39,042 nucleotides of DNA from contig WGLY01000019.1 of the NCBI GenBank assembly GCA_016125335.1, positions 1 through 39,042 of the forward strand, read 5' to 3'. Of the stretch, positions 1,188 to 37,750 are shown in pieces. The translations under genes were made by a program, and so were the position numbers. The stretch is from Frankiales bacterium. GTDB lineage: Bacteria; Actinomycetota; Actinomycetes; S36-B12; CAIYMF01. Under the pieces are notes generated by a model. That model worked only from the letters and a program-made list of their open reading frames with translations, was not told where the DNA came from and made no database searches. The stretch's first letter is position 1, and every line of letters starts with the position of its first letter.

Positions 1188-1546
1188 GATGTCTTGCAGG
1201 CATTGCTGTGGGGATCTCCGACCGTCAGGGTCGCGGTCGAGGAACGCGTCACGGTCGCGGCCGCCCCAGGCACCTGCGTTGCCACGACCATCGAGCCTGT
1301 GGGCGAGGCAGTGGTGGCATCCACGGACAAACCGTCGGCGGTGAGCATGGCGACGGCCGTGTTGATGTCCATCCCGGTGACCTGGGGAAGGACTGCCGTC
1401 GCAGGCGATGCCGGCCAAGGCGCGCCGGCATTGACGCTGACCATGTGATGGACCTGGATCGTGCTCCCCGCTGCGACGCCTTCGAGCGGACGGGGGAAGC
1501 CGAGGCGGCGGCATACCCGTTGACACGTCACAGGGTCAACGGTCAT
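1184..1546 (-). CDS. PASTA-repeat protein, short or truncated
   Basis: About 120 residues from the ATG at 1546. The C-terminal half matches a single PASTA repeat: Leu-Pro-Gln-Val-Thr-Gly-Met followed by an Ala-Val-Ala-Met-Leu helix, then a Val-Val-Ala-Thr-Gln-Val-Pro-Gly-Ala motif and a final Leu-Thr-Val-Gly strand. PASTA repeats usually sit outside the cell on Ser/Thr kinases, penicillin-binding proteins or lipoproteins and can bind peptidoglycan fragments. Here there is no signal peptide or membrane helix, and the N-terminal 45 residues are Arg/Cys-rich and unlike an export signal, so this may be the remnant of a longer gene. The stop overlaps the next GTG. It follows cheW after a 77-base gap but looks unrelated to chemotaxis. 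Confidence 0.5.
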   Translation of the reverse strand: MTVDPVTCQRVCRRLGFPRPLEGVAAGSTIQVHHMVSVNAGAPWPASPATAVLPQVTGMDINTAVAMLTADGLSVDATTASPTGSMVVATQVPGAAATVTRSSTATLTVGDPHSNACKTS

Positions 1547-1623
1547 CGCGGCAGGATGCGAGAACCGAGTCGACGTGCCGCTCGAGCTCGCCTGCGCGGG
1601 CGACGGGTGAGGGACGCGCCTTC

Positions 1624-2388
1624 TCAGGAGGGGGCCGGCGGGCGCACCAGCGCCAGCACGTCCGCCCCGAGCCGCTCCTGCGGGGGGCGCTCGGCGTCGG
1701 ACTCGAGCTCGGCCGCCGAGGGCAGCTCCACGAGCAGCACCGGCTCGCCGCCCTCGGGTCGCAGCACGCCCCGGGCGTAGCCGGGCAGGCTCTCCGGCAC
1801 GCGCTCGTCCTCGAGCGGGAGCTCGTCGGCGGCCAGCACCGCGAGCACGCGGTCGACGACGACGCCGACGTGACGCCGGTACACCGGCAGCAGCACGTCC
1901 CCGACCTCGTCGGGGTCCTGGCGCAGGTCCACCACCGGCACCGACCTGCCGCGCGCGTCCACGAGCGCCACCCCGCGCCCGAGCGGGTGGCTCCGGTCGG
2001 CGAGCAGCTCGATCCGGGCCGCGCGCACCACCTCGTGCACCTCGCCCACGGCGGCGGCGAAGACAGTGGAGCCGACGGCGAAGAGCACGTAGCCCTGCGG
2101 GTCGGGTGCCGCGGCGCGCGGCGCGCGGCGCTCCGCCCCGGACGTCGTCGCGGCCGCGTCGGATGAGTCGGCAGCAGCCGTGCGGTCGCTCCACGGCCGG
2201 CCGGGGCGGCGTCGTTCCACGCCACCCGGCGCACCCGGGACCGGCGCCGCGGCCGGGTCGTTACTGCGTGGCGGAGCCGGGTCGCCACCGAGTGGCGGAG
2301 CTGGGGTCGCCTCGTCGGTGGCGGGCACGGGCGCGGCGGGCACGGGGGCGGGCGCGAACCGCGAGGCCGGCGCCGCCTCCGGGCTCAT
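1624..2388 (-). CDS. cheW: CheW-like chemotaxis coupling protein
   Basis: CheW-type adaptor (254 residues) that would bridge chemoreceptors and the CheA kinase in the cytoplasm. The first ~95 residues are a Pro/Ala-rich, probably disordered extension. The CheW beta-barrel domain follows, from a Gly-Tyr-Val-Leu-Phe-Ala-Val-Gly strand through Val-His-Glu-Val-Val-Arg, a Val-Pro-Val-Val-Asp-Leu-Arg strand and a Val-Gly-Val-Val-Val-Asp-Arg-Val-Leu strand. CheW proteins are usually about 150-170 residues, so the extension is notable. The ATG at 2388 overlaps the cheR stop (ATGA), so it is co-translated with cheR as the last gene of cheB-cheR-cheW. No receptor or cheA gene is in the window, and the poor match to typical CheW N termini leaves some doubt about its partner. 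Confidence 0.85.
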   Translation of the reverse strand: MSPEAAPASRFAPAPVPAAPVPATDEATPAPPLGGDPAPPRSNDPAAAPVPGAPGGVERRRPGRPWSDRTAAADSSDAAATTSGAERRAPRAAAPDPQGYVLFAVGSTVFAAAVGEVHEVVRAARIELLADRSHPLGRGVALVDARGRSVPVVDLRQDPDEVGDVLLPVYRRHVGVVVDRVLAVLAADELPLEDERVPESLPGYARGVLRPEGGEPVLLVELPSAAELESDAERPPQERLGADVLALVRPPAPS

Positions 2389-3821
2389 CCGCCCTCCTCG
2401 GCCGCGCGCCGGTCGCACTGGTCCGCCAGGCGGCGGCACAGCGCCACGAGCTGAGCCACGTCGCAGCCGTCGAGCAGGTCCACGAGGTCGGCCGGCGGAG
2501 TCTGCGGCAGGGTCGCGGCCGCCGAGCGGTACTCGCGGGCGGCGGCGGCGTGCTCGCCGCAGCGGGAGAGCGCCCCGGCCAGCTGGAACCGGGCGTGCCC
2601 GGCCTTGGGCGCGAGGTAGACGGCCTTGCGCAGCGCGACGAGCGCGCCCTCGTCGTCGCCCACGGTGGCCCGGGCCCGGCCCTCGACGACGTACGCCTCC
2701 ACCTCGAACGGGCTGGCCATGGCGGCCGAGGCCGCCAGCCGCGCGGCCTCGGCGTAACGGGCCAGCGCGAGGGCGGCGCGCGCCTGCCCGAGCAGGTCGG
2801 TGGCGGTGTCCGGGTCCGGCACGGAGTCGGTCGGACGCACGACGGGCTGCGGCGCCTCGGGCCAGCTGCGCCGGTCGCGCCGCTCGGCCCGCACGACGGC
2901 GCGCCGGTGGGGCCGCGGTGCGGCGGGGGCCTCGCCCTCGGCGGGGGCGGCCGCCGGCACGGCGGGCGAGTCCTTGCGGTAGGCGAAGGCGTCCCCGAGG
3001 GTCACGAGCGTGAACGCGTCGGTCACCTGCCAGAGGGTCTCGGCGTGGCCCACCAGCAGGTATCCGCCCGCGCCGAGGACGGTGTGGAAGCGGCCCACCA
3101 GCTCGCGCATGGTGTCGCGGGAGAAGTAGATGGTGACGTTGCGGCACACCACCAGGTCGACCTCGCCGGGGCCGAACGGCGGCTCGTCCGCGACGAGGTT
3201 GTGCAGGCGCACGTCGACGAGGTCGCGCACCGCGGGCACCACGGAGCGGGTGCCGTCGGGCTCGGTGGTGAACCAGGCCGCGAGCCGCTCGTCGTCCACC
3301 AGGCTCAGCGAGCGCCCGGCGTAGCGCGCCCGCCGGGTGGCCTCGACGGCCTGGGTGGCGAGGTCCGTGGCCAGGATGCGCACCTGCGGCGCCTCGGGCA
3401 GCGACGCCGCGACCTCGGCGGCCAGGATCGCCAGCGAGTACGGCTCCTCGCCGCTCGAGCAGCCCGCGCTCCACACCGTGAGCGGGCGGCCGCGTGCCAC
3501 CGCGCGGCGCATCAGCTCGGGCAGCAGGCGTCGGGCCAGCGCGGTCATCTGCGGCGGGTTGCGGAAGAAGTGCGTCTCCGGGACGGTCACCGCGTCCAGC
3601 AGCCGCTGGCGCTCCTCGGCGCCGGCCGGCGTGCTGATGCGGGCGAGGTAGGCGCCGAGCTCCGCTGCGCCGCTGGCCGCGAGCCGCTCGGCGATCACCG
3701 CCGAGAGCGTGGGACGCCGGCTCTGGTCGAACACCAGGCCCGCCTCGTGCGCGAGGTAGCCGGCCAGCGCGGCGAACTCCGCGTCGGTCAGCGCCTGCGG
3801 GCCCACCGCGACGCCGCTCAC
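2385..3821 (-). CDS. cheR: CheR-type chemoreceptor glutamate methyltransferase with C-terminal TPR-like region
   Basis: S-adenosylmethionine-dependent methyltransferase that adds methyl groups to glutamates of chemoreceptors for adaptation. Of about 478 residues, an N-terminal helical domain comes first (1-75), then the family signature Pro-Glu-Thr-His-Phe-Phe-Arg-Asn (81-88), the SAM-binding Ser-Ala-Gly-Cys-Ser-Ser-Gly-Glu-Glu-Pro-Tyr-Ser loop (118-129) and a Cys-Arg-Asn-Val strand. After residue ~330 there are Ala-rich helical pairs (for example Lys-Ala-Val-Tyr-Leu-Ala-Pro) that look like tetratricopeptide repeats, as in longer CheR proteins where they mediate protein contacts. GTG 3821 is used because it follows the cheB stop by one base; GTG 3806 is an alternative with better spacing from GAGG. 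Confidence 0.92.
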   Translation of the reverse strand: MSGVAVGPQALTDAEFAALAGYLAHEAGLVFDQSRRPTLSAVIAERLAASGAAELGAYLARISTPAGAEERQRLLDAVTVPETHFFRNPPQMTALARRLLPELMRRAVARGRPLTVWSAGCSSGEEPYSLAILAAEVAASLPEAPQVRILATDLATQAVEATRRARYAGRSLSLVDDERLAAWFTTEPDGTRSVVPAVRDLVDVRLHNLVADEPPFGPGEVDLVVCRNVTIYFSRDTMRELVGRFHTVLGAGGYLLVGHAETLWQVTDAFTLVTLGDAFAYRKDSPAVPAAAPAEGEAPAAPRPHRRAVVRAERRDRRSWPEAPQPVVRPTDSVPDPDTATDLLGQARAALALARYAEAARLAASAAMASPFEVEAYVVEGRARATVGDDEGALVALRKAVYLAPKAGHARFQLAGALSRCGEHAAAAREYRSAAATLPQTPPADLVDLLDGCDVAQLVALCRRLADQCDRRAAEEGG

Positions 3822-28133: not shown

Positions 28134-28636
28134 AGCCCCGCCGACCTCTGCTCCCCGCGCCGGGCGAGCCGGTCGCGCAGGTCCGCCGCGACGTCCGGTG
28201 TCAGCCCGGGGATGCGCGCGTCGGTCGTCGCTGCGGCGGTGTGCAGCTGGACGGTCGTGATGCCCAGCATGCGGTGCACCGGTCCGGCGGTCAGGTCGAC
28301 GAGCTGCATGCGGCCGTAGGGCACGATCACGAGGCGGCGGAACAGGATCCCGCTCGTCACGAGCAGGTCGTCCGCCCGCTCGGAGTACCCCCACGAGCGC
28401 ACCCGTCGTCCGATCAGCCACCAGGCCCACGCCGTCACCACCACGACGACGACGGCCACGGCGACCGGCACCCACACGGGGACGCGGGGTATCAGCGCCA
28501 GCGCCACCACGGCCGCGACGCCCACGAGCACACCGAACCCGAGGTCGACCCGGTACGCGGTGGCCAGCTTCGGGGAGACGCGGATCCAGTCCGCGCCGAC
28601 GGGTGCGAACGCGAGCTCGGTCATGCGGCTGTCCAC
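28130..28636 (-). CDS. bacterial PH-domain membrane protein (YdbS-like)
   Basis: A 168-residue protein with two transmembrane helices (about 30-50 and 54-75) followed by one bPH2 domain: [13 protein letters not shown], then [11 protein letters not shown], and [10 protein letters not shown]. It is the small partner of the downstream YdbT-like protein. GTG 28636 is used because TAGGTT lies 6 bases upstream (leaderless); ATG 28624 is the alternative. Confidence 0.85.
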
Positions 28637-28642
28637 GGCACC

Positions 28643-28648
28643 AACCTA
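28643..28648 (-). promoter_or_regulatory. leaderless -10 hexamer, TAGGTT
   Basis: TAGGTT on the minus strand, 6 bases before the GTG at 28636. A plus-strand GAGCAT (28663-28668), 6 bases before the ATG at 28675, may serve the divergent NuoD-like gene. Confidence 0.45.
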
Positions 28649-28674
28649 GCCGCGGCGTCTGCGAGCATGCCCGC

Positions 28675-29844
28675 ATGAGTCCGGCGGCGACGCGCGAGAT
28701 CACCCTGGCGGTCGGGTCCGTGGCACTGGCCGCCCAGGCGGCCGACGGCACCGAGCTGGTGCCGGTCGAGCTCGGCCCGCAGCACCCGTCGGCGCACGGG
28801 CTCCTGCGCCTGCGCCTCACCCTCGAGGGGGACGTCGTCGTCGCGGCGCAGCCGCTGGTCGGGGCCATGCACCGCGGGGCGGAGAAGCTGTTCGAGTCGC
28901 GCGACTACCGGCAGGCCATGGTGCTGGCCGACCGGCACGACTGGCTCTCCGCCTTCGGCAACGAGCTGGGGATCGCGCTGGCCGTCGAGCGCATGCTCGG
29001 GATGGACGTCCCGTCGCGGGCGACGTGGGCGCGCACCCTGCTGGCCGAGCTCACGCGGGTGGGCAGCCACCTGGCGTTCCTCGGCTCGTCCCCCGTCGTC
29101 GGTGCGGAGTCGGTGTACTACCTGCACGACGAGCGCGAGGCCGTCGTCGCGGTGCTCGAGGAGGCCACCGGCGGGCGCCTGCACGTCATGGCCGCCCAGG
29201 TGGGCGGGCTCAAGCAGGACCTCCCGGCGGGGTGGCTCGACCGGGTGGCCGCTGCCTCGGCGGTGGTGCGCGGCGGGCTCGAGCGGGTTGCCGTGCGGCT
29301 CGCCGACGCCGCGGTCCGCGACGCGCACCGCGGCGTCGGGGTGCTGCCACGCGACGTGGCCCTGGCCCACGGAGTCTCCGGTCCCGTGGCCCGGGCGTCC
29401 GGCGTCGACCTCGACCTGCGGCGCGACGAGCCCTATCTCGCGTACGCCGAGCTGGCCGACGTCCTGCGGGTGCCGCTGCGCACCGAGGGCGACGTGCTGG
29501 CCCGCGTCGAGGTGCTGCACGAGCAGACGCTCGTGGCCCTCGACCTCGTCGAGGCGTGCGTGCGCCGGCTCGCCGACGCCGAGCCGGGACCGATCAACGT
29601 GCGGCTGCCCAAGGTGCTGCGCGCGCCCGAGGGGCACACCTACGTCTGGACCGAGAACCCGCTGGGGCTCAACGGCTACCTGCTGGTGTCGCGCGGCGAG
29701 AAGACGCCGTGGCGGCTCAAGCTGCGCACCGCGTCGTTCAACAACGTCTCGGTGCTCGGCGCGCTGCTGCCCGGCCAGCGCCTCGGCGACGTCGTCGACG
29801 TGCTGGCGTCGCTGTTCTACGTCGTCGGCGACATCGACAAGTGA
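28675..29844 (+). CDS. stand-alone NuoD-like (NADH-quinone oxidoreductase subunit D family) protein
   Basis: A 389-residue member of the NuoD/49-kDa/[NiFe]-hydrogenase large-subunit family. The Gly-Pro-Gln-His-Pro-Ser-Ala-His-Gly loop (34-42) is intact and the C terminus ends Val-Val-Gly-Asp-Ile-Asp-Lys. The Cys ligands of hydrogenases are absent. Where Thermus Nqo4 has Arg-Met-Asp-Tyr (quinone-contacting Tyr87), this protein has Arg-His-Asp-Trp (Trp90), and Gly-Tyr-x-His is Gly-Ala-Met-His. No nuoC, nuoE or other complex I gene is next to it, so it is a paralogue, not part of a nuo operon. Two small membrane proteins follow it closely. Confidence 0.85.
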
Positions 29845-30463: not shown

Positions 30464-31066
30464 TCAGGCGACGAAGAACGTGGTGAGCGCCCCCAGCACG
30501 GCCGTCAGCGCGATCCAGTACCAGTAGTAGCCCACCACCGTGGCGTGGGTGTGGTTCTGGTCGAGCTTGCCCTGCGAGCCCCGGTTCCAGATGCCGATGC
30601 CCACCACGAGCAGCATCACCAGGTGCACGAGCAGCACGTAGGACATGACGATGAACACGCTCGCGTAGGCGCCGTCGCTCATGAGGATCGGCCAGGTCGC
30701 CGCCTGGTAGACCATCAGCGCGATCGCCGCGATCACGAGGATGACGCCGAGCAGCGCACCGGTCTGGAACCGGCCCCGCTGGCCCGCGGCGATGCCCATC
30801 TCGGCGGAGCGGTAGGCCAGCGCGCTGAGCACGACCACCCCGGCGATGAGCCACACCTGCCAGGCTTCGGCGGTCTGCCCGCCGTCGGGGATCCACCCGC
30901 CGTTGACGTTGAGCGAGCGCAGGTAGAAGTACGTGAACAGCATGCAGGCGAAGAACACCGCGTCGGCCACGATGAACAGCTGCACCGCGCGCCGCTGCTG
31001 GTGCGCGACCTGCGCGGGCGGCAGGTGGTGCGACTCGGCGGCGTGCTCGTGCTCGAGGGTGCTCAC
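30464..31066 (-). CDS. ctaE: cytochrome c oxidase subunit III
   Basis: A 200-residue, five-helix subunit III of a haem-copper oxidase. The N-terminal helix region Phe-Phe-Ala-Cys-Met-Leu-Phe-Thr-Tyr-Phe-Tyr-Leu-Arg matches the family, as does the final His-x-x-x-Val-Val-Gly-Tyr-Tyr-Trp-Tyr-Trp segment. GTG 31066 overlaps the ctaD stop (GTGA). In most actinobacteria ctaE is instead beside qcrCAB; here it follows ctaD directly, suggesting a second, self-contained oxidase cluster. Confidence 0.9.
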   Translation of the reverse strand: MSTLEHEHAAESHHLPPAQVAHQQRRAVQLFIVADAVFFACMLFTYFYLRSLNVNGGWIPDGGQTAEAWQVWLIAGVVVLSALAYRSAEMGIAAGQRGRFQTGALLGVILVIAAIALMVYQAATWPILMSDGAYASVFIVMSYVLLVHLVMLLVVGIGIWNRGSQGKLDQNHTHATVVGYYWYWIALTAVLGALTTFFVA

Positions 31067-32988
31067 GCCGTCACCTCCTCGGGCTCGGCGCCCGCGTGCG
31101 CATCGGCGCCGGCGTGCGTGGTGTGGATGGTGTCGGCCTCGCCGTAGCCGTACGGGTCACCGGTGACCACGGGGAGCACCTCGAAGTTCTCCAGCGGGGG
31201 CGGCGACGGCACGTACCACTCGAGCGTCTTGGCGCGCCACGGGTTGGGGCCCGAGGGGGCGCCGTGCCGCCACGAGTGGACGATGCAGTAGAGGAACAGC
31301 AGCATCCCGATGCCGATGGTGTAGGCGCCCAGGGTCGAGATGCGGTTCGCGACCTCGAACTGGGGCGCGTAGTCGGCGACGCGGCGCGGCATGCCCTGGA
31401 GGCCGTTGTAGAACATGGCCATGAAGGTCACGTTGAAGCCGATCATCACGACGTAGAACGACCAGCGGCCCACCCGCTCGTCGAACATGCGGCCGGTCAT
31501 CTTCGAGAACCAGTAGACGACGGCGCCCATCGCGCCGATCATCGCGCCGCCGAGCAGGGTGTAGTGGAAGTGCGCGGTGACGAACATCGCCCCGTGCAGC
31601 TCGTTGTCGGCCGGCACGTCGGACAGGAAGATGCCCGTCACGCCGCCGATCATGAAGTTCCACAGGAACCCGTAGATGAACAGCATGGGGAGCCGGGTCC
31701 AGATGTGGCCTCTCCAGATCGTGCCGATGAGGACCAGGAAGATCAGTCCTGTCGGGATCGAGATGAGCTCCGTGGTGAGCATGAACGGACCGGCGAGCGT
31801 GGGCGCCCAGCCGCTCACGAACATGTGGTGCGCCCACACCAGCACGCTCAGCACCACGAGGGCGACGATGCCGATGACCGCCAGCCGCGCGCCGAAGAGC
31901 GGCTTGCGGCTGAACACCGGGGCCATCTCGAGCACCGCGGCGGTGCCCGGGATCAGGATGACGTAGACCTCCGGGTGGCCCATGAGCCAGAAGAGGTTGG
32001 CGTACAGCCACTGGCTGCCGCCCTGGTCCGGGACGAAGAACGACGACTCCATGCTGCGGTCGAGCAGCGTGTAGATCATGCCGACCTCGAAGCACGGCAG
32101 CGCGATGAGGCCGAGCACGGAGGTGGCCACCACGCCGACGACGAAGATCGGCGTGCGGTTCCACGTCATGCCCTTGGCGCGCATGGTCATCGCGGTCACG
32201 ATGATGTTGACCGCGCCGATGCCGGACGAGATGACGAACAGCACGATGGCGATCGCGAAGGCGTCCATGCCGGGCGGGGCCTGGTCCGACAGCGGGGCGT
32301 AGGCGACCCAGCCGGTCGGGATCCCGCGCAGCGCGGCGATCGACAGGAAGATCGGGATCGCGGGGAACAGCGTCCAGAACGACAGCGCGTTCAGCCGCGG
32401 GAAGGCCATGTCACGGGCGCCGATCATGATCGGCATGATGAAGTTGCCCCAGGGTCCGACCACCATGATGATCGTCGAGACGATCATGATGATGCCGTGC
32501 ACCCCGACGAGGGAGTTGTAGACCTCGCCGCCGAACATCTTCTCGCCGCTCGACGCGAGCTCGGTGCGGATCATCATCGCCAGCAGGCCGCCGACGCCGA
32601 ACGTCGTCATCGCCAGCACGAGGTACTGGACGCCGACGACCTTGTGGTCGGTGGTGAACCGGAAGTAGCGGCCCACGCCCTGGCCCTGGCCGGCGAGGAA
32701 CATCTCGTCCTCGTGGGTCTGGTCCTTGCCCATCATCCAGCGCCAGGGGGCCACGAAGGCGCCGACGCCGACCAGGAAGCCGATCGCCCACGCCGTCTCC
32801 ATGGCGATGACGATCTGGTCGAGGCCCTTGTCGTTCTCGCCCCAGAGCGCCTGCCCGACGAACCACATGATCACGGCGAGCAGGACGCCCAGCCCGATGC
32901 CGGTCCACATGTTGAGGCGGCGCATGATGCCGCCCCCCGTGCTGACCGGTGCCGGTGCGTCCTCCCGCACCGCCGTTGCCTCAGCCAT
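31063..32988 (-). CDS. ctaD: cytochrome c oxidase subunit I, atypical (no K-pathway Lys)
   Basis: A 641-residue haem-copper oxidase core. Ligands are intact: low-spin haem His164 and His475, high-spin haem His473, CuB His338, His387 and His388, cross-link Tyr342 in Gly-His-Pro-Glu-Val-Tyr, and D-pathway Asp193 in Ala-Arg-Asp-Met-Ala-Phe-Pro. The K-pathway motif Ile-Pro-Thr-Gly-x-Lys reads Ile-Pro-Thr-Gly-Leu-Ile (411-416), so the Lys is Ile416. About 100 extra N-terminal residues hold two more helices (about 28-48 and 62-80). The ATG at 32988 overlaps ctaC by 8 bases. Confidence 0.9.
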   Translation of the reverse strand: MAEATAVREDAPAPVSTGGGIMRRLNMWTGIGLGVLLAVIMWFVGQALWGENDKGLDQIVIAMETAWAIGFLVGVGAFVAPWRWMMGKDQTHEDEMFLAGQGQGVGRYFRFTTDHKVVGVQYLVLAMTTFGVGGLLAMMIRTELASSGEKMFGGEVYNSLVGVHGIIMIVSTIIMVVGPWGNFIMPIMIGARDMAFPRLNALSFWTLFPAIPIFLSIAALRGIPTGWVAYAPLSDQAPPGMDAFAIAIVLFVISSGIGAVNIIVTAMTMRAKGMTWNRTPIFVVGVVATSVLGLIALPCFEVGMIYTLLDRSMESSFFVPDQGGSQWLYANLFWLMGHPEVYVILIPGTAAVLEMAPVFSRKPLFGARLAVIGIVALVVLSVLVWAHHMFVSGWAPTLAGPFMLTTELISIPTGLIFLVLIGTIWRGHIWTRLPMLFIYGFLWNFMIGGVTGIFLSDVPADNELHGAMFVTAHFHYTLLGGAMIGAMGAVVYWFSKMTGRMFDERVGRWSFYVVMIGFNVTFMAMFYNGLQGMPRRVADYAPQFEVANRISTLGAYTIGIGMLLFLYCIVHSWRHGAPSGPNPWRAKTLEWYVPSPPPLENFEVLPVVTGDPYGYGEADTIHTTHAGADAHAGAEPEEVTA

Positions 32989-33814
32989 TCGAGCCCTCCG
33001 CTGCTGCCGTGGTGTCGGGCGTGCCGCCGTGCGCCGTGATCCAGCTGGCCCAGTCGTTGCCGTCGAGCACCTGGACGCTGGTCTGCATGTACGAGTGGTT
33101 GAGGCCGCAGAGCTCCGCGCACCTCACGTTGAACACGCCCGCCACCGTCGGGGTGGTGCTCACCGTCGTGGTGACCGACGGGTTCGCGTCGACCTTGATG
33201 CCCATCTCGGGCAGCCAGAACGAGTGGATGACGTCGAGGCTGGTCACCTCGAAGATGACCGGCCGGTCCTTGGGCAGCGCCAGCTCGGGGCTGCTGAAGC
33301 CGCCGTCGTCCGGGTAGCTGAAGGTCCACAGCCACTGCTGCCCGGTGACCTGGATGGTGACCGGCTTGGCGTTGGGCGACAGCGTGGTGGTGGAGGTCAG
33401 CGCGGCCAGGCCCCAGATGAGCAGGAACGCGGTGAGCAGGGAGCTCACGACCACCCAGGCGACCGCGACGCGGTTGTTGCCGCGCACCGGCGGCGCGTCC
33501 TCCGGCGGCTCCTCGCCGGAGCCACGGCGCCAGTGCCGCAGCGAGTAGTAGGCGATGCCCCACACGAGCGCCATGACCGGGGCCGCGGCGATGGAGAACA
33601 CGAGGATCGTCTGCTTGACGGCGTCCTCGGTGTCCGACGCCGTCGTCGGGAGGCTCACCAGCGGCCACCAGATGCCGAAGGCGAGCAGCAGCACGGTCAG
33701 CACGACCACCACGACGCCGACGCCGAGCGCGAGCTTGCCCGCGGGTGTCGACAGCCGGTCACGCACCGGGTGCGGTGTGAGGGTCTCGCTGGACTCGTCG
33801 GTCTCAGGTGTCAC
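32981..33814 (-). CDS. ctaC: cytochrome c oxidase subunit II (CuA)
   Basis: A 277-residue subunit II accepting electrons from cytochrome c. The CuA site is complete: His197, then Cys232-Ala-Glu-Leu-Cys236, His240 and Met243. Three hydrophobic segments precede the cupredoxin domain (about 28-50, 68-90 and 115-136), one more than usual, so the first may be an uncleaved signal or an extra helix. No haem-binding Cys-x2-Cys-His extension is present (not caa3 type). GTG 33814 has GAGGAGG about 8 bases upstream. Confidence 0.9.
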   Translation of the reverse strand: MTPETDESSETLTPHPVRDRLSTPAGKLALGVGVVVVVLTVLLLAFGIWWPLVSLPTTASDTEDAVKQTILVFSIAAAPVMALVWGIAYYSLRHWRRGSGEEPPEDAPPVRGNNRVAVAWVVVSSLLTAFLLIWGLAALTSTTTLSPNAKPVTIQVTGQQWLWTFSYPDDGGFSSPELALPKDRPVIFEVTSLDVIHSFWLPEMGIKVDANPSVTTTVSTTPTVAGVFNVRCAELCGLNHSYMQTSVQVLDGNDWASWITAHGGTPDTTAAAEGSNG

Positions 33815-33874: not shown

Positions 33875-34573
33875 TCACACGACGTGCAGGGTTCCGGACA
33901 TGTAGCCGTAGCTGCTCATGGCGTCGCCGAACTTGGCGTACGTGCCGTCGCCGCACGGGAACTCGCAGTTCCAGGCGTAGGTGCCCGGGCCGCCCGTGAC
34001 GAACTTGAACGTGATGACGTGCGGCTGGGGCAGCGTGCCCGCGTCGTCCGCCGCCTGCGCCGCGTCGTCGGAGATGGCCGGCAGCGGGACGTTGATGTAC
34101 AGCGGGTCCTGCGCGCTCGTCGGGTAGTTGTGCACGGTGAACGTGTGGCCGACGCTCTCGGAGTCGATCTCGCTGACGGTCTTGCCGTCGACGGTGATCG
34201 TGCCCCCGAGCGTGCCCTGCACGTGCGCCAGGAACGTGTTGGGGATCGGCTCGCCGGAGTCGTACTGCTTGATCGTCACCGTGATGACCGAGTGCGCCGG
34301 CACCTGCAGGTTCGTCGTGGGGCCGTAGCTGACCCAGTCGTGCGGCCCGTTGCCGTCGTTGGTCCGGCGCCAGGTGATCTGGCTGCTGTCGCCGTACGTC
34401 GCCAGCTCGAGTGAGGCCTCGGAGGTGGCTCCGGGCGTGCTCGAGGTCTGCGACGTCACGGTGGCCTCGAGCAACGGCGGCTCGGTCGGGGCCGAGTGGA
34501 GCACCAGGGCAGCAGCCCCGACCACCACGGCACCGAGCGCGGCCGTGCCGACAGCACCGACAAGAGTGTTCAC
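33875..34573 (-). CDS. membrane-anchored cupredoxin-like protein with Cys-x3-Cys
   Basis: A 232-residue protein with an N-terminal hydrophobic helix (about 4-25) and an outer domain with cupredoxin-like elements. These are His143-Thr-Phe-Thr-Val-His148 (first metal-ligand strand), His185 in Pro-His-Val-Ile-Thr-Phe, and Trp-Asn-Cys203-Glu-Phe-Pro-Cys207-Gly-Asp-Gly, with Met219 and Met225 downstream. The Cys-x3-Cys recalls CuA, but the His four residues after the second Cys is absent. It could be an electron carrier, a copper donor or a structural subunit of the neighbouring oxidase; 60 bases separate it from ctaC. GTG 34573 is preferred, with GGGGGG 7 bases upstream. Confidence 0.7.
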   Translation of the reverse strand: MNTLVGAVGTAALGAVVVGAAALVLHSAPTEPPLLEATVTSQTSSTPGATSEASLELATYGDSSQITWRRTNDGNGPHDWVSYGPTTNLQVPAHSVITVTIKQYDSGEPIPNTFLAHVQGTLGGTITVDGKTVSEIDSESVGHTFTVHNYPTSAQDPLYINVPLPAISDDAAQAADDAGTLPQPHVITFKFVTGGPGTYAWNCEFPCGDGTYAKFGDAMSSYGYMSGTLHVV

Positions 34574-34673
34574 GCGCACACCCCCCACATGGGTGACGAA
34601 GTTCACCCGTTCGGTCCGCAGGGTGGCCCTCCTCCTGGACCCGGTCAAGCGCCGAGACCGAACTGCGACATTC

Positions 34674-34818
34674 GTCGTACGACCGGGCCTGACCTGCAGC
34701 GATGCCGCCCTGAAAGGCGCCTCGTCGGCCGTTCGGCCCGGCTCCGCCCCGCCCCGGCCGCCTCCGTGGTACGGCCGCTCCACATCTCCCGCTCAGCAGC
34801 CGCCCAGCGTCGTACGAC
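34674..34818. repeat. two copies of palindrome GTCGTACGAC
   Basis: GTCGTACGAC occurs at 34674-34683 and 34809-34818, each within a 12-base identity CGTCGTACGACC. They lie in the 300-base gap between the Asp-box lipoprotein gene and the cupredoxin-like gene, upstream of the latter, so an operator role is possible. A TTGACC at 34648-34643 (minus) could be a -35, without a convincing -10. Nothing else is seen in this gap. Confidence 0.4.
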
Positions 34819-34873: not shown

Positions 34874-35944
34874 TCAGGTGCGCATCGCGCCGCCGCCGAT
34901 GGTCGCCACCCAGTCCGGGAGCGGCACCTCGGTGACGGCGGGCGCCGGGCCGAGCGCGAGGTCGAGCACCCGGCCCGCGTCGTCGTCCGCGGCGAAGGCG
35001 CGGGTGTCGGACACCGCGTCCAGGGACACCAGCCGCGTGTCGGTCGACCCGACCTGCGCCCACGCGGCACCCGGCGCAGCTGCGTAGACGGCGTCGCCGC
35101 CGCCCGACGGCGCGGCGGCGACCACGCTGGCGGGGGCGCACGACACCACCGCCTGCCCGGAGGCGGGCAGGGCCGGCCCGGCGGTCCACGGCCCGGCCGA
35201 CGACGACGCCGTCAGCACCAGCAGGTGGTCGTCGGCCTGCACCGGCACGGCGTACGACGAGCCGAGCCGGCAGGGCGGTCGCGCCGCGACGTCGCTGCCC
35301 GCGGCGCGCAGGCCGGAGTCGCGCCAGGTGGCTCCGGAGTCGTCGGACACCAGCAGCAGCGGCCCGTCGTCGTGCCGGCTCACCGTGACGAACCCGGTGC
35401 CGTCCGGCGTGAACCAGATGCCGGTGGGCGACCCGTCCCCCAGCGGGAGGCTGCCCGGCGCGGCGGCCGTCGTCCACGTGGCGGCGCCGTCGTCCTGGCG
35501 CACCAGCGACCCGTCGGCCAGCACGGCCCAGGTCGTCGAGCCGGTGCGGGCGAGCGCGCCCGCCGTGGCGGCCAGCGCCGAGGGCAGCTGGGTGGGGTTC
35601 CACTGACGGGTCGAGCCGTCCGAGGTGAGCACCGGCGAGACCGTGAGGGCCTGGAAGGGCAGCACGCCCAGGGTGAGCCGGCCCGGCTGGGCCGCGAGCA
35701 CCACCCCGCCGTCGGTGGGCACCGCCACGGGCGTGCGGTTGGTGACCGTGCGCCAGCCGTCGGTCGTGCTCAGCACGATCCAGCGCACGCCGCTGGGCCA
35801 CACGGCGTAGCCGGACTCCGGCCCGGTCATCGTCACGCGGGGCAGCGTCGCGGAGTCCGCGGGCTGCGGGGCGGGCCCGGAGGAGCACGCGGCCAGCAGC
35901 AGCGCGGCGAGGGCGAGCCCTGCCGGCAGTCGGAGACGGGTCAC
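34874..35944 (-). CDS. Asp-box (BNR repeat) lipoprotein
   Basis: A 356-residue protein with a lipoprotein signal (Leu-Ala-Ala-Cys, Cys20) followed by a beta-propeller-like domain. An Asp-box is clear in Ser-Asp-Asp-Ser-Gly-Ala-Thr-Trp, and a weaker one is Gln-Asp-Asp-Gly-Ala-Ala-Thr-Trp, the repeats found in sialidases and YCF48-type assembly factors. It lacks other sialidase active-site features, so it is probably a binding or assembly protein. GTG 35944 overlaps the SCO-fusion stop (GTGA), so the two are co-translated, linking it to oxidase maturation by position. Confidence 0.75.
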   Translation of the reverse strand: MTRLRLPAGLALAALLLAACSSGPAPQPADSATLPRVTMTGPESGYAVWPSGVRWIVLSTTDGWRTVTNRTPVAVPTDGGVVLAAQPGRLTLGVLPFQALTVSPVLTSDGSTRQWNPTQLPSALAATAGALARTGSTTWAVLADGSLVRQDDGAATWTTAAAPGSLPLGDGSPTGIWFTPDGTGFVTVSRHDDGPLLLVSDDSGATWRDSGLRAAGSDVAARPPCRLGSSYAVPVQADDHLLVLTASSSAGPWTAGPALPASGQAVVSCAPASVVAAAPSGGGDAVYAAAPGAAWAQVGSTDTRLVSLDAVSDTRAFAADDDAGRVLDLALGPAPAVTEVPLPDWVATIGGGAMRT

Positions 35945-37638
35945 AGGTGCCTGCGCAGCTCGGCGGAGATGAGGGCGACGTAGCTGGCGGAGAGGTCGTC
36001 GTTGGCGGTGTCGACGAGCACCTCGAGCTCGCGGCCGTCCGGGCCGAACAGGTAGATCGTCTGCGGGTGCCCGATCATGCCGACGTTGGGCACCGAGATG
36101 CCCTCGCCGTAGGCCGCGAGCAGGTCGCGGACCACCGCGGTGGGCCCGGTCACGAAGTGCCACTGGGCCCAGCCGTCGAGCCCGTGCTCGACGGTGAACG
36201 TGCGCACGTCCTGCACGCGGTTGAACACGGGGTTCACGTCGACCGCGAGCACCGAGACCTTCGAGGCGTCCCCGCCGAGGGAGTGCACCGCCGTCGAGAG
36301 CTGGTTCGCGATGAGCGGGCAGCTGTCGAAGCAGACGGGGTCGAGGAAGACCACCAGCGTGAGCGTCCCGCGCAGGTCGCTCATCCGCAGCGTGCTGCCG
36401 TCCTGGTCGGTGAGGGTGAACGCCGGTGCGGGCTCGGGCGGGGTCTCGCTGACCCCGCCGCTGTCGCCCACCGCCGCGAGCGCGGACTGCGGGGCGAGCA
36501 GGCCGACGGCCGCCACGACCGGCAGCACGAGCAGGCAGCCCAGCGCAGCCGCGACGCCCACCGCGCGCAGGACCGGCCGGGGCGCGGCCGCGACCGGGGC
36601 GGCGTCCGCGGCCTCGTCCGGTGCCGGCCACGGCCACGACGACAGCAGCATCAGCGCCGCCACCAGACCGGTGTCCGGGTCCGTCGCCGTGCCGCCGAAG
36701 ACGCCGAAGCCCTGGCCGAACCACCACGCGAACAGCGACAGGACGCCTCCGGCGACCACGGCCGCCCGCGGCGCGACGTCGAGCAGCAGCGCGAGGCCCA
36801 CGACGGCGAGCGCGACGACCAGCACCGCGTTCGCGGCGACGGCGTGCGGCGGCAGCGCCGTGGCCAGCGACTGGATCGGCGCGGCGGCCGGGGCGGGCAC
36901 ACCGCTCAGCGCCGTCGCGGAGAAGACGTCGAACAGGCCGGTCGGGCTCCAGTAGCCGCCCCGCGGGAGGGCCTGGAGCACGGCCCCGAGCACGAGCGTG
37001 GCCCCGACGACGCGACGCAGCCAGCGCGCGGCGGAGCCCGACGCCCAGGCCCGGTCCGGCGCGAGCAGCACCAGGCTCGCGGCGACGTAGAGCAGCGCGG
37101 CGCCGGGGGCGCCGGTGAGCCACGACGCGGCCGGGTCGGTGAGGCCGCCGACCAGCTCTCCCACCGCCCACACGAACCCGGCCCACGCGGCGGATGCCAC
37201 GAGCACGGCGCGGGCGAGCCGGCCGCGACCCCCGACCAGGATCGCGATGCCGAGGCCCACCTGGATCCACACCGTCACGGCGTCGGCGGCCACCGGGTGC
37301 TGGAGCCACATGCGCTGGAAGGGGTCCACCACGGCGTAGAGCCAGTCCGGCGCGGGGTCGAGACCCGGGGCGATGTCGACCTGGATGAACGAGGACGGCA
37401 TCTGGGGCTGGGCCTGGAGCAGCCCGTCGACCACCCAGAGCACGCCCAGCGCGACCCGCAGCACGAGCCGGCCCCGAGGCTCCGGCGTGACGGGCAGGGC
37501 GACCGACCCGCGGCGGCGCAGCAGCACGACGACGACCACCACGGCGACGACGGCGAGCAGGACGAGCAGCTGCCAGAGCAGCGCGGCGTAGAGGTCCCCC
37601 GCGAGGGCGGTGTTGCCCCCGGGCTCCATCCCTGCCAT
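35941..37638 (-). CDS. multi-pass membrane domain fused to SCO1/SenC copper chaperone domain
   Basis: A 565-residue fusion. The first ~375 residues contain about eight hydrophobic helices, with a Leu-Arg-Val-Ala-Leu-Gly-Val-Leu-Trp-Val-Val-Asp-Gly segment reminiscent of DoxX-like proteins. The C-terminal ~170 residues are a SCO/thioredoxin-fold domain with Cys436-Phe-Asp-Ser-Cys440 and the copper-binding His524 in Ile-Gly-His-Pro. SCO proteins deliver copper to CuA of subunit II, so the substrate is probably the CtaC of this locus. The ATG at 37638 follows TACGAT by 7 bases (leaderless); it is divergent from ctaG. Confidence 0.85.
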   Translation of the reverse strand: MAGMEPGGNTALAGDLYAALLWQLLVLLAVVAVVVVVVLLRRRGSVALPVTPEPRGRLVLRVALGVLWVVDGLLQAQPQMPSSFIQVDIAPGLDPAPDWLYAVVDPFQRMWLQHPVAADAVTVWIQVGLGIAILVGGRGRLARAVLVASAAWAGFVWAVGELVGGLTDPAASWLTGAPGAALLYVAASLVLLAPDRAWASGSAARWLRRVVGATLVLGAVLQALPRGGYWSPTGLFDVFSATALSGVPAPAAAPIQSLATALPPHAVAANAVLVVALAVVGLALLLDVAPRAAVVAGGVLSLFAWWFGQGFGVFGGTATDPDTGLVAALMLLSSWPWPAPDEAADAAPVAAAPRPVLRAVGVAAALGCLLVLPVVAAVGLLAPQSALAAVGDSGGVSETPPEPAPAFTLTDQDGSTLRMSDLRGTLTLVVFLDPVCFDSCPLIANQLSTAVHSLGGDASKVSVLAVDVNPVFNRVQDVRTFTVEHGLDGWAQWHFVTGPTAVVRDLLAAYGEGISVPNVGMIGHPQTIYLFGPDGRELEVLVDTANDDLSASYVALISAELRRHL

Positions 37639-37646
37639 GGCCAGGG

Positions 37647-37652
37647 ATCGTA
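37647..37652 (-). promoter_or_regulatory. leaderless -10 hexamer, TACGAT
   Basis: TACGAT on the minus strand, 8 bases before the ATG at 37638 (transcription start expected close to the ATG). Confidence 0.5.
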
Positions 37653-37750
37653 AGCGCACGTCGCAGGACGGACGACCCGATCCCAGGTCACGGTTCGTTC
37701 GCAACGACGCGGGCGCGCTCGGAACCCGAGCGGGGAGGCGGCGACGGGTC

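Follow-up and report, generated by a model that had tools for sequence, protein, structure and literature searches.

A predicted clade of A-family cytochrome c oxidases with a dismantled K proton pathway, seen from a subunit I gene of a Frankiales bacterium

How might a cytochrome c oxidase work when the lysine of its K proton pathway is missing? The question is raised by a 39,042-nucleotide stretch of DNA from a Frankiales bacterium (contig WGLY01000019.1 of assembly GCA_016125335.1; the window, by which we mean this whole stretch), which encodes a haem-copper oxidase subunit I with isoleucine at the place of this residue. The reading we favour, with a probability of roughly 0.5, is that the encoded subunit I belongs to a functional cytochrome c oxidase of the A family (A1-like), one of a clade in which the K pathway has been dismantled, the D pathway would supply the protons, and two acids, Glu407 and Asp457, would take over the role of the lysine. 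The gene and the positions on which the argument turns are:

31063..32988, minus strand: ctaD-like gene for subunit I of the predicted K-pathway-less A-family oxidase, 641 amino acids (open reading frame with ATG at 32988; profile and fold matches)
32749..32910, minus strand: two extra N-terminal helices, the known 2TM feature (residues 27-49 and 53-75, the span being residues 27-80; model and PMC8239418)
32410..32412, minus strand: Asp193, the entrance Asp of the D pathway (alignment)
31963..31977, minus strand: HPEVY block, residues 338-342, with the CuB His, the D-pathway Glu340 and the active-site Tyr342 (alignment)
31930..31932, minus strand: Leu353 at the position of the K-pathway Ser (Ser291 of Paracoccus denitrificans; alignment)
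31768..31770, minus strand: Glu407, common to the Lys-less clade and found in none of the Lys-bearing enzymes (alignment)
31741..31743, minus strand: Ile416 at the position of the K-pathway Lys (alignment)
31618..31620, minus strand: Asp457, common to the Lys-less clade with one exception (L183) and found in none of the Lys-bearing enzymes (alignment)

The protein is of A-family descent by sequence and by fold, although the K channel printed for that family is incomplete in it. It matches the Pfam family COX1 with 410 bits and stays below the cut-offs of CtaD_CoxA (TIGR02891; 555 against 670.75 bits) and cyt_aa3_Actin (NF050116; 437.8 against 880 bits), and it shares 41% identity with the canonical CtaD encoded in the same genome. 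Confidence in the predicted model is high (mean predicted local distance difference test score, pLDDT, 87.5), and the best row of the fold search is a mutant of the Rhodobacter sphaeroides oxidase (3omi; Z 53.7, root-mean-square deviation 1.1, 497 residues). The wild-type enzyme (2gsm) gives Z 53.5, and the structure of its K362M mutant (3om3, Z 53.2) is among the best matches; no nitric oxide (NO) reductase appears among the best 50 rows of each search, which excludes nothing. The R. sphaeroides residue numbers in this text (e.g. D132, N139 and K362) are those we take to apply. An initial annotation of this DNA had described the metal ligands, the HPEVY motif and the D-pathway Asp as kept and an N-terminal addition with two helices, and all of this holds: His164, His338, His387/388, His473 and His475 are in place, as is Asp193, and the extension measures about 105-110 residues in the model, with helices at 27-49 and 53-75. 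Such a two-helix addition is known as the '2TM' form of COX1 (PMC8239418).

The missing Lys is equally real. Residue 416 is Ile (ATC), three past the Thr of IPTG, the place of the Lys in relatives that have it, and the neighbouring residues are Phe-Leu-Val-Leu against the usual Phe/Val-Phe-Asn-Trp. Close homologues that keep the Lys would be a sign of error; the closest among the matches listed (83% and 77% identity) also carry Ile, and the best 30 loci, picked purely by likeness to the window protein, are all without Lys. With an open frame and ratios of nonsynonymous to synonymous substitution (dN/dS) of about 0.10 and about 0.16, indicating purifying selection, a sequencing error, pseudogene or decayed copy is ruled out for practical purposes.

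The counts that follow come from several samples. A first test comprised 128 aligned rows (69 Lys-less and 59 Lys-bearing) and preceded a Chloroflexota sample, the 30 loci nearest to a Lys-less query among 251 genomes, of whose 18 Lys-less loci two (L173, L181) are copies of loci already included. The full set holds 187 rows, near-copies among them; dereplication at 95% leaves 153, of which 75 have the Lys and 78 do not. For the K-pathway comparison, 69 clade rows, picked as having no Lys and having Glu407, were set against 68 Lys-bearing rows, after removal of ten rows retrieved a second time from the same genomes. Counting Glu407 within these 69 rows would be circular, and its figures come from splits by Lys alone. 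L003 and L061 (partial) and L008 are not in the later alignments. Trees were built on thinned sets (91 of the 128 rows, 120 of the 187, and 64 of those 120), with the trait columns left in.

The A-type K channel is given as Lys354, Thr351, Ser291 and Tyr280 in P. denitrificans numbering (PMC3084760, the source of all such numbers here). In the window protein the Lys and Ser are absent, and Thr413 and Tyr342 are present. The initial annotation understates the case, because subunit I has also lost the Ser of helix VI and the Trp that follows the Lys place, and subunit II its entrance Glu. Across the 69 clade rows the Lys place is taken by Leu (46), Ile (11), Val (9) or Phe (3), and the Ser place (353) by Met (34), Leu (29), Phe (2), Ala (2), Ile (1) or Gly (1), against Ser (62) or Thr (6) in the 68 Lys-bearing rows. 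The Trp four residues past the Lys is gone in 69/69 clade rows, where position 420 is apolar, and present in 68/68 Lys-bearing ones. After dereplication, Ser or Thr at 353 (Thr) and Trp at 420 each occur in a single one of the 74 Lys-less rows with Glu407, both times L183, against 75 of 75 Lys-bearing rows in either case. The Thr of the PTG motif is kept in 39/69 clade rows and is Phe, Val or Ile in the other 30. Two of the 60 readable clade members, both Elusimicrobia (a 61st is masked), have the subunit II entrance Glu, which all 44 Lys-bearing enzymes read carry; in the window it is Ala117 (33464-33466). The alignments show all three subunit I residues, the K-pathway Lys, the Ser of helix VI and the Trp, replaced across the clade, nearly always by apolar ones.

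These replacements bear on the idea of a remodelled inner K-like path, in which waters and other groups, for example Glu354, would still conduct protons from the inside. Glu354 lies one residue past the lost Ser on helix VI and is Glu in 65 and Asp in 4 of the 69 clade rows, and a K-like path without the Lys is tabulated for the B and C families (PMC3084760, Table 2). We nevertheless rejected Glu354 as a substitute for the Lys, because 64/68 Lys-bearing rows have Glu or Asp there too. The residues found at 353 (Met, Leu, Phe, Ala, Ile or Gly), the apolar position 420 and the Phe, Val or Ile for the PTG Thr in 30 of the 69 rows also speak against such a path, as does the count of 0/69 for Tyr at 353, the residue that the B-family-like L154 has there, and we consider the idea unlikely. 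That last count, with Leu353 and a D channel in the window protein, also led us to reject membership of the B or C family.

The D-channel residues named for P. denitrificans are Asp124, Asn113, Asn131, Asn199, Tyr35, Ser134, Ser193 and Glu278 (PMC3084760), and the window protein has Asp193, Asn182, Asn200, Asn261, Tyr122, Ser203, Ser254/255 and Glu340. In the clade, Tyr122, Asn182 and Asn261 are found in 69/69 rows and Asp193 and Asn200 in 67/69; Glu340, the Glu of HPEVY that marks the A1 subtype, is present in the window protein and in 60/69 rows. The marks of the A family, six His ligands and the Tyr of HPxVY on helix VI (Tyr342 in the window protein), are retained in 69/69 rows, the window protein included, and the Cys, His and Met of the CuA site in 61/61. 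At the level of sequence, the retained Tyr, CuA site and D pathway favour unchanged O2 reduction.

Two acids accompany the loss. In the first test, split by Lys alone, Glu407 was found in 68/69 Lys-less rows and 0/59 Lys-bearing rows, the one Lys-less row without it being L118, with Gln at the Lys place. Asp457 was present in all 68 Glu407 rows and in 0/59 Lys-bearing ones. Glu407 then appeared in 18/18 Lys-less and 0/12 Lys-bearing loci of the Chloroflexota sample, in 102/107 against 0/80 of all 187 rows and, after dereplication, in 74/78 against 0/75; the four Lys-less rows without it are L118, L148, L154 and L156. Of the 74 dereplicated Glu407 rows, 73 have Asp457, L183 having Ser, against 0/75 Lys-bearing rows. 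Phe526 also seemed a marker at first (68/68) and was dropped because three later Lys-less loci (L166, L170, L191) have His or Ala there. Glu407 lies on helix VIII, 19 residues past His388, and Asp457 at the end of helix IX, four residues ahead of Asp461, which we take to adjoin the haem a3 propionates. From the order of the helices, Glu407 would lie near the binuclear centre, facing helix IX, and both acids would sit midway across the membrane or nearer its outer face. They favour a changed proton route, one of the two outcomes that the initial annotation offered, the other being an altered function.

The change appears to define a clade, as the initial annotation had proposed to examine. In the 91-row tree, 57 Lys-less rows are separate from every Lys-bearing row, and L118 is the only further row without the Lys; in the 120-row tree the Lys-less label needs four changes; and in the 64-row tree 36 Glu407 rows are set off by a branch with support 100/99. 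Adding L183 to this group was rejected (approximately unbiased test, p-AU 0.015, 64-row tree). L183 (genome G294) is an A2-like subunit I with Ile for the Lys and the same Glu407, standing outside the main clade as if caught midway. L183 seems to have lost the Lys independently and gained the same acid, because of this placement and because the Trp and the subunit II Glu are kept, which suggests apparent convergence; its separateness is no more than suggestive, because its branch is long and the group tested was named after a tree had been viewed. Other losses were seen. L118, a ctaD on plasmid p195_2 of Bradyrhizobium sp. 195 (locus 1489-3396), has Gln for the Lys and Asn for the D-entry Asp, retains HPEVY and has no Glu on helix VIII; this is a double loss of its own, and the plasmid is predicted to be conjugative. 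L148 / L203, the second COX1 of Elusimicrobia genome G151, has Leu for the Lys and Ala for the Ser of helix VI and likewise lacks a Glu at position 407.

In the mechanism we propose, electrons would pass from a membrane cupredoxin of the operon (described below) or a c-type cytochrome to CuA and on to haem a, and protons from the inner (N) side, both pumped and chemical, would enter through the D pathway. Two acids, Glu407 close to the binuclear centre and Asp457 close to the haem a3 propionates, would replace the Lys in charge compensation and would also provide the proton for the Tyr and binuclear centre upon reduction. Proton pumping is probably kept. K-pathway mutants block haem a3 reduction and the oxidative phase uses the D pathway (PMC12901375), while the first reduction is still possible in mutants without the Lys and the K channel perhaps carries just one proton per cycle (PMC8079940). 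An oxidase that has no K channel needs other sources for that proton and for the charge compensation which the Lys provides. The statement of the initial annotation that A-type oxidases need this Lys was too strong. K-pathway mutation is reported to inhibit the laboratory enzyme (PMC12901375), and the need is not a rule, because PMC8239418 names K-channel variants in family A and has one scenario on an archaeal family A tree with seven losses.

Several points weigh against this reading. Nine of the 69 clade rows are A2-like and have no Glu at 340. The Lys is also missing without Glu407 in L118 (Gln), L148 (Leu) and the B-family- or NO-reductase-like L154 and L156, and L183 has no Asp457 and still has the Trp and the subunit II entrance Glu. 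A Lys-bearing COX1/CtaD is present in 8/10 holder genomes examined, so the Lys-less enzyme is often not the sole oxidase. The route through Glu407 and Asp457 is a proposal read from helix order and sequence. Finally, eight loci (L127, L128, L175, L176, L179, L180, L182 and L191) carry Arg in place of the D-entry Asp and, seven residues further, Glu in place of the Asn, and for them a normal D-pathway supply cannot hold unchanged. These D132R/N139E members (GARRMAFPRLE type) form one branch with support 99 in the 120-row tree and keep Glu340. Both classical inner proton entrances are thus changed in their sequences, and the entry acid has shifted inward, not vanished.

This branch, lacking both normal inner entrance residues, lends some weight to another account, in which the outer (P) side would supply, as in NO reductases, the protons that the K pathway usually delivers. 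They would start at the haem a3 propionates and reach the binuclear centre by way of Asp457 and then Glu407, and those steps would not be electrogenic. The cytochrome c-type NO reductase (cNOR) uses periplasmic protons for its chemistry, for which the path PropD-Thr330-Ser277-Glu280 (PropD, propionate D) has been proposed (PMC3431322). If residues are counted from His259 of NorB, the second His of HH, Ser277 corresponds to Thr406 of the window protein, next to Glu407, and the helix order suggests a middle or outer position for both acids. Asp457 would be one residue off the Thr330 place if, as we presume, the NorB haem His is 347. The correspondence, however, comes from ungapped residue counting, and the NO reductase Glu itself lies at +21 from the His, where the window protein has Ile. 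The same source judges the PropD path less likely because the cavity stays dry in simulation (PMC3431322), and D-pathway residues are retained in most clade members. We regard outer-side uptake as the chief rival of the favoured reading, though clearly less likely; the branch of eight is a complication for either.

A more radical alternative is changed chemistry, the protein being an NO reductase or another enzyme and not an O2 reductase. cNOR likewise has no proton path from inside (PMC3431322), and the Lys-less enzyme often stands beside a normal CtaD, in 8/10 genomes and in the window's own genome, which also holds a Lys-bearing CtaD. On the other side, neither NO reductase motif (H-X-Arom-X-E and HH-X-Arom-Arom-X17-E, as given in PMC3084760) is found, HPEVY standing in place of the first and Ile409 at the Glu of the second, for which NO reductase membership was rejected; the active-site Tyr is present in 69/69 clade rows; and in one genome (G084) a Lys-less oxidase is the sole terminal oxidase found by COX1 and CydA family searches. 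We therefore think changed chemistry very improbable.

The Lys-less clade spans Actinomycetota, Chloroflexota and Elusimicrobiota; at least 60 of 148 genomes, the window's own included, have a match of at least 44% identity to the window protein, and canonical-type matches among the matches listed reach at most 43%. Named holders include Actinobacteria bacterium IMCC19121, a Candidatus Nanopelagicales bacterium and Dictyobacter kobayashii, with other Ktedonobacteria, Thermoflexus and Elusimicrobia besides. No Lys-bearing COX1 was found in two Elusimicrobia of the ten holder genomes, and G151 is among the genomes without one. G084 (99% complete) has one COX1-family match, Lys-less and with Glu407, and no CydA match in the two family searches; as far as the assembly goes, the Lys-less type is its only terminal oxidase found. 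G078 (83% complete) and Elusimicrobia G152 likewise have a single Lys-less COX1 and no CydA match, and in G135, G043 and G108 COX1 is solely of the Lys-less type but CydA is present. In the window's genome there is also a partial COX1 (L003; G000:C33:15835-16206), 85% identical to the C-terminal part of the normal CtaD and either a truncated copy or an assembly remnant. L052 and L061 (same contig) and G007:C68 show two distinct copies of the Lys-less type near each other on a single contig; these share about 79-81% and 52-53% identity with the window protein, and in both cases the copy with the higher identity is cut or partial.

The genes around subunit I, in the consecutive order cupredoxin, subunit II, subunit I, subunit III, and a further gene nearby are:

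33875..34783, minus strand: membrane-anchored cupredoxin-like protein, first gene of the conserved block (modelled part 33878-34579; model and alignment)
32981..33814, minus strand: subunit II with a complete CuA site and the entrance Glu replaced by Ala117 (profile and alignment)
30464..31066, minus strand: subunit III, COX3 (profile match)
35941..37704, minus strand: protein whose C-terminal SCO1/SenC domain follows a long hydrophobic N-terminal part (profile match)

The cupredoxin gene is present in 53/54 HPEVY-type clade members with subunit II in reach, the exception (L032) being at a contig end, and in all six D132R/N139E members whose neighbourhood was read, in L201 behind subunit III. 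BLAST to 1e-6 gave a cupredoxin match in 0/7 A2-like Lys-less and 0/44 Lys-bearing loci. Among 24 aligned members, HTF, W-x-C, P-C-G, two late Met and the neighbouring Gly are invariant; the cupredoxin of the window has two Cys (C-x3-C) and the late Met residues, and its model has an N-terminal helix. The best Foldseek matches of this model are auracyanin and rusticyanin, and VIA gives nitrosocyanin with Z 9.3, values (9.3 and below) that are middling and indicate merely a cupredoxin-like fold. The protein may be an electron donor or a bound subunit. The SCO1/SenC protein, tied to the operon by its position alone, is likely to deliver copper; a similar protein (31% over 540 amino acids) lies near the operon in L045. 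A match to the complex I 49 kDa family lies on the plus strand at 28603-29844, near the oxidase block.

Compared with A1-type CtaD/CoxA (R. sphaeroides, P. denitrificans, actinobacterial aa3), the window protein shares the fold, metal ligands, HPEVY, D pathway and a CuA-bearing subunit II, whereas its clade is without the K-pathway Lys, Ser, Trp and subunit II Glu, and the protein adds Glu407, Asp457 and two N-terminal helices. Those helices it shares with the 2TM COX1 variants of Degli Esposti et al. 2021 (PMC8239418), whose sections on such variants discuss losses on an archaeal tree and name no Glu on helix VIII. Other Lys-less relatives (Chloroflexota, Elusimicrobiota and one record titled Acidimicrobiia) resemble the A2 type (YSHPAVY); the window protein has HPEVY instead, and 42 A2-type rows of the first test keep the Lys. 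One A2 record, L109, is titled Bifidobacterium breve and groups with Solirubrobacteraceae A2 oxidases, its title being probably a wrong label. Like NorB of cNOR, the window protein has no K pathway and has an acid on helix VIII near the presumed active site, but it misses the NO reductase motifs and has the Tyr, the D pathway and a CuA subunit II. The R. sphaeroides K362M enzyme (3om3) also has an apolar residue for the Lys, yet it is a laboratory mutant, whereas the natural clade carries further changes. K-channel variation in family A is thus known in outline. No description of the Lys-less actinobacterial and Chloroflexota clade or of the Glu407/Asp457 pair was found in the literature searched, mostly without subscription journals and supplements; the clade itself is apparently new, its novelty in print not proven.

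It is doubtful that a whole branch of O2-reducing A-family oxidases without a K pathway would draw outer-side protons through Asp457 and Glu407 as in NO reductases; if true, this and the D132R/N139E sub-branch would link oxygen reductases with an NO-reductase-like proton topology. Table 2 of PMC3084760 gives each of the families A, B and C a K channel of the classical or an alternative kind. A natural clade in which the K pathway appears erased in both subunits, and which provides the sole terminal oxidase found in some genomes, would offer a natural test of proton pumps: it bears on the reason for two inner proton routes, on the role of the Lys beyond conduction, and on whether Glu407 and Asp457 may rescue a Lys-less mutant.

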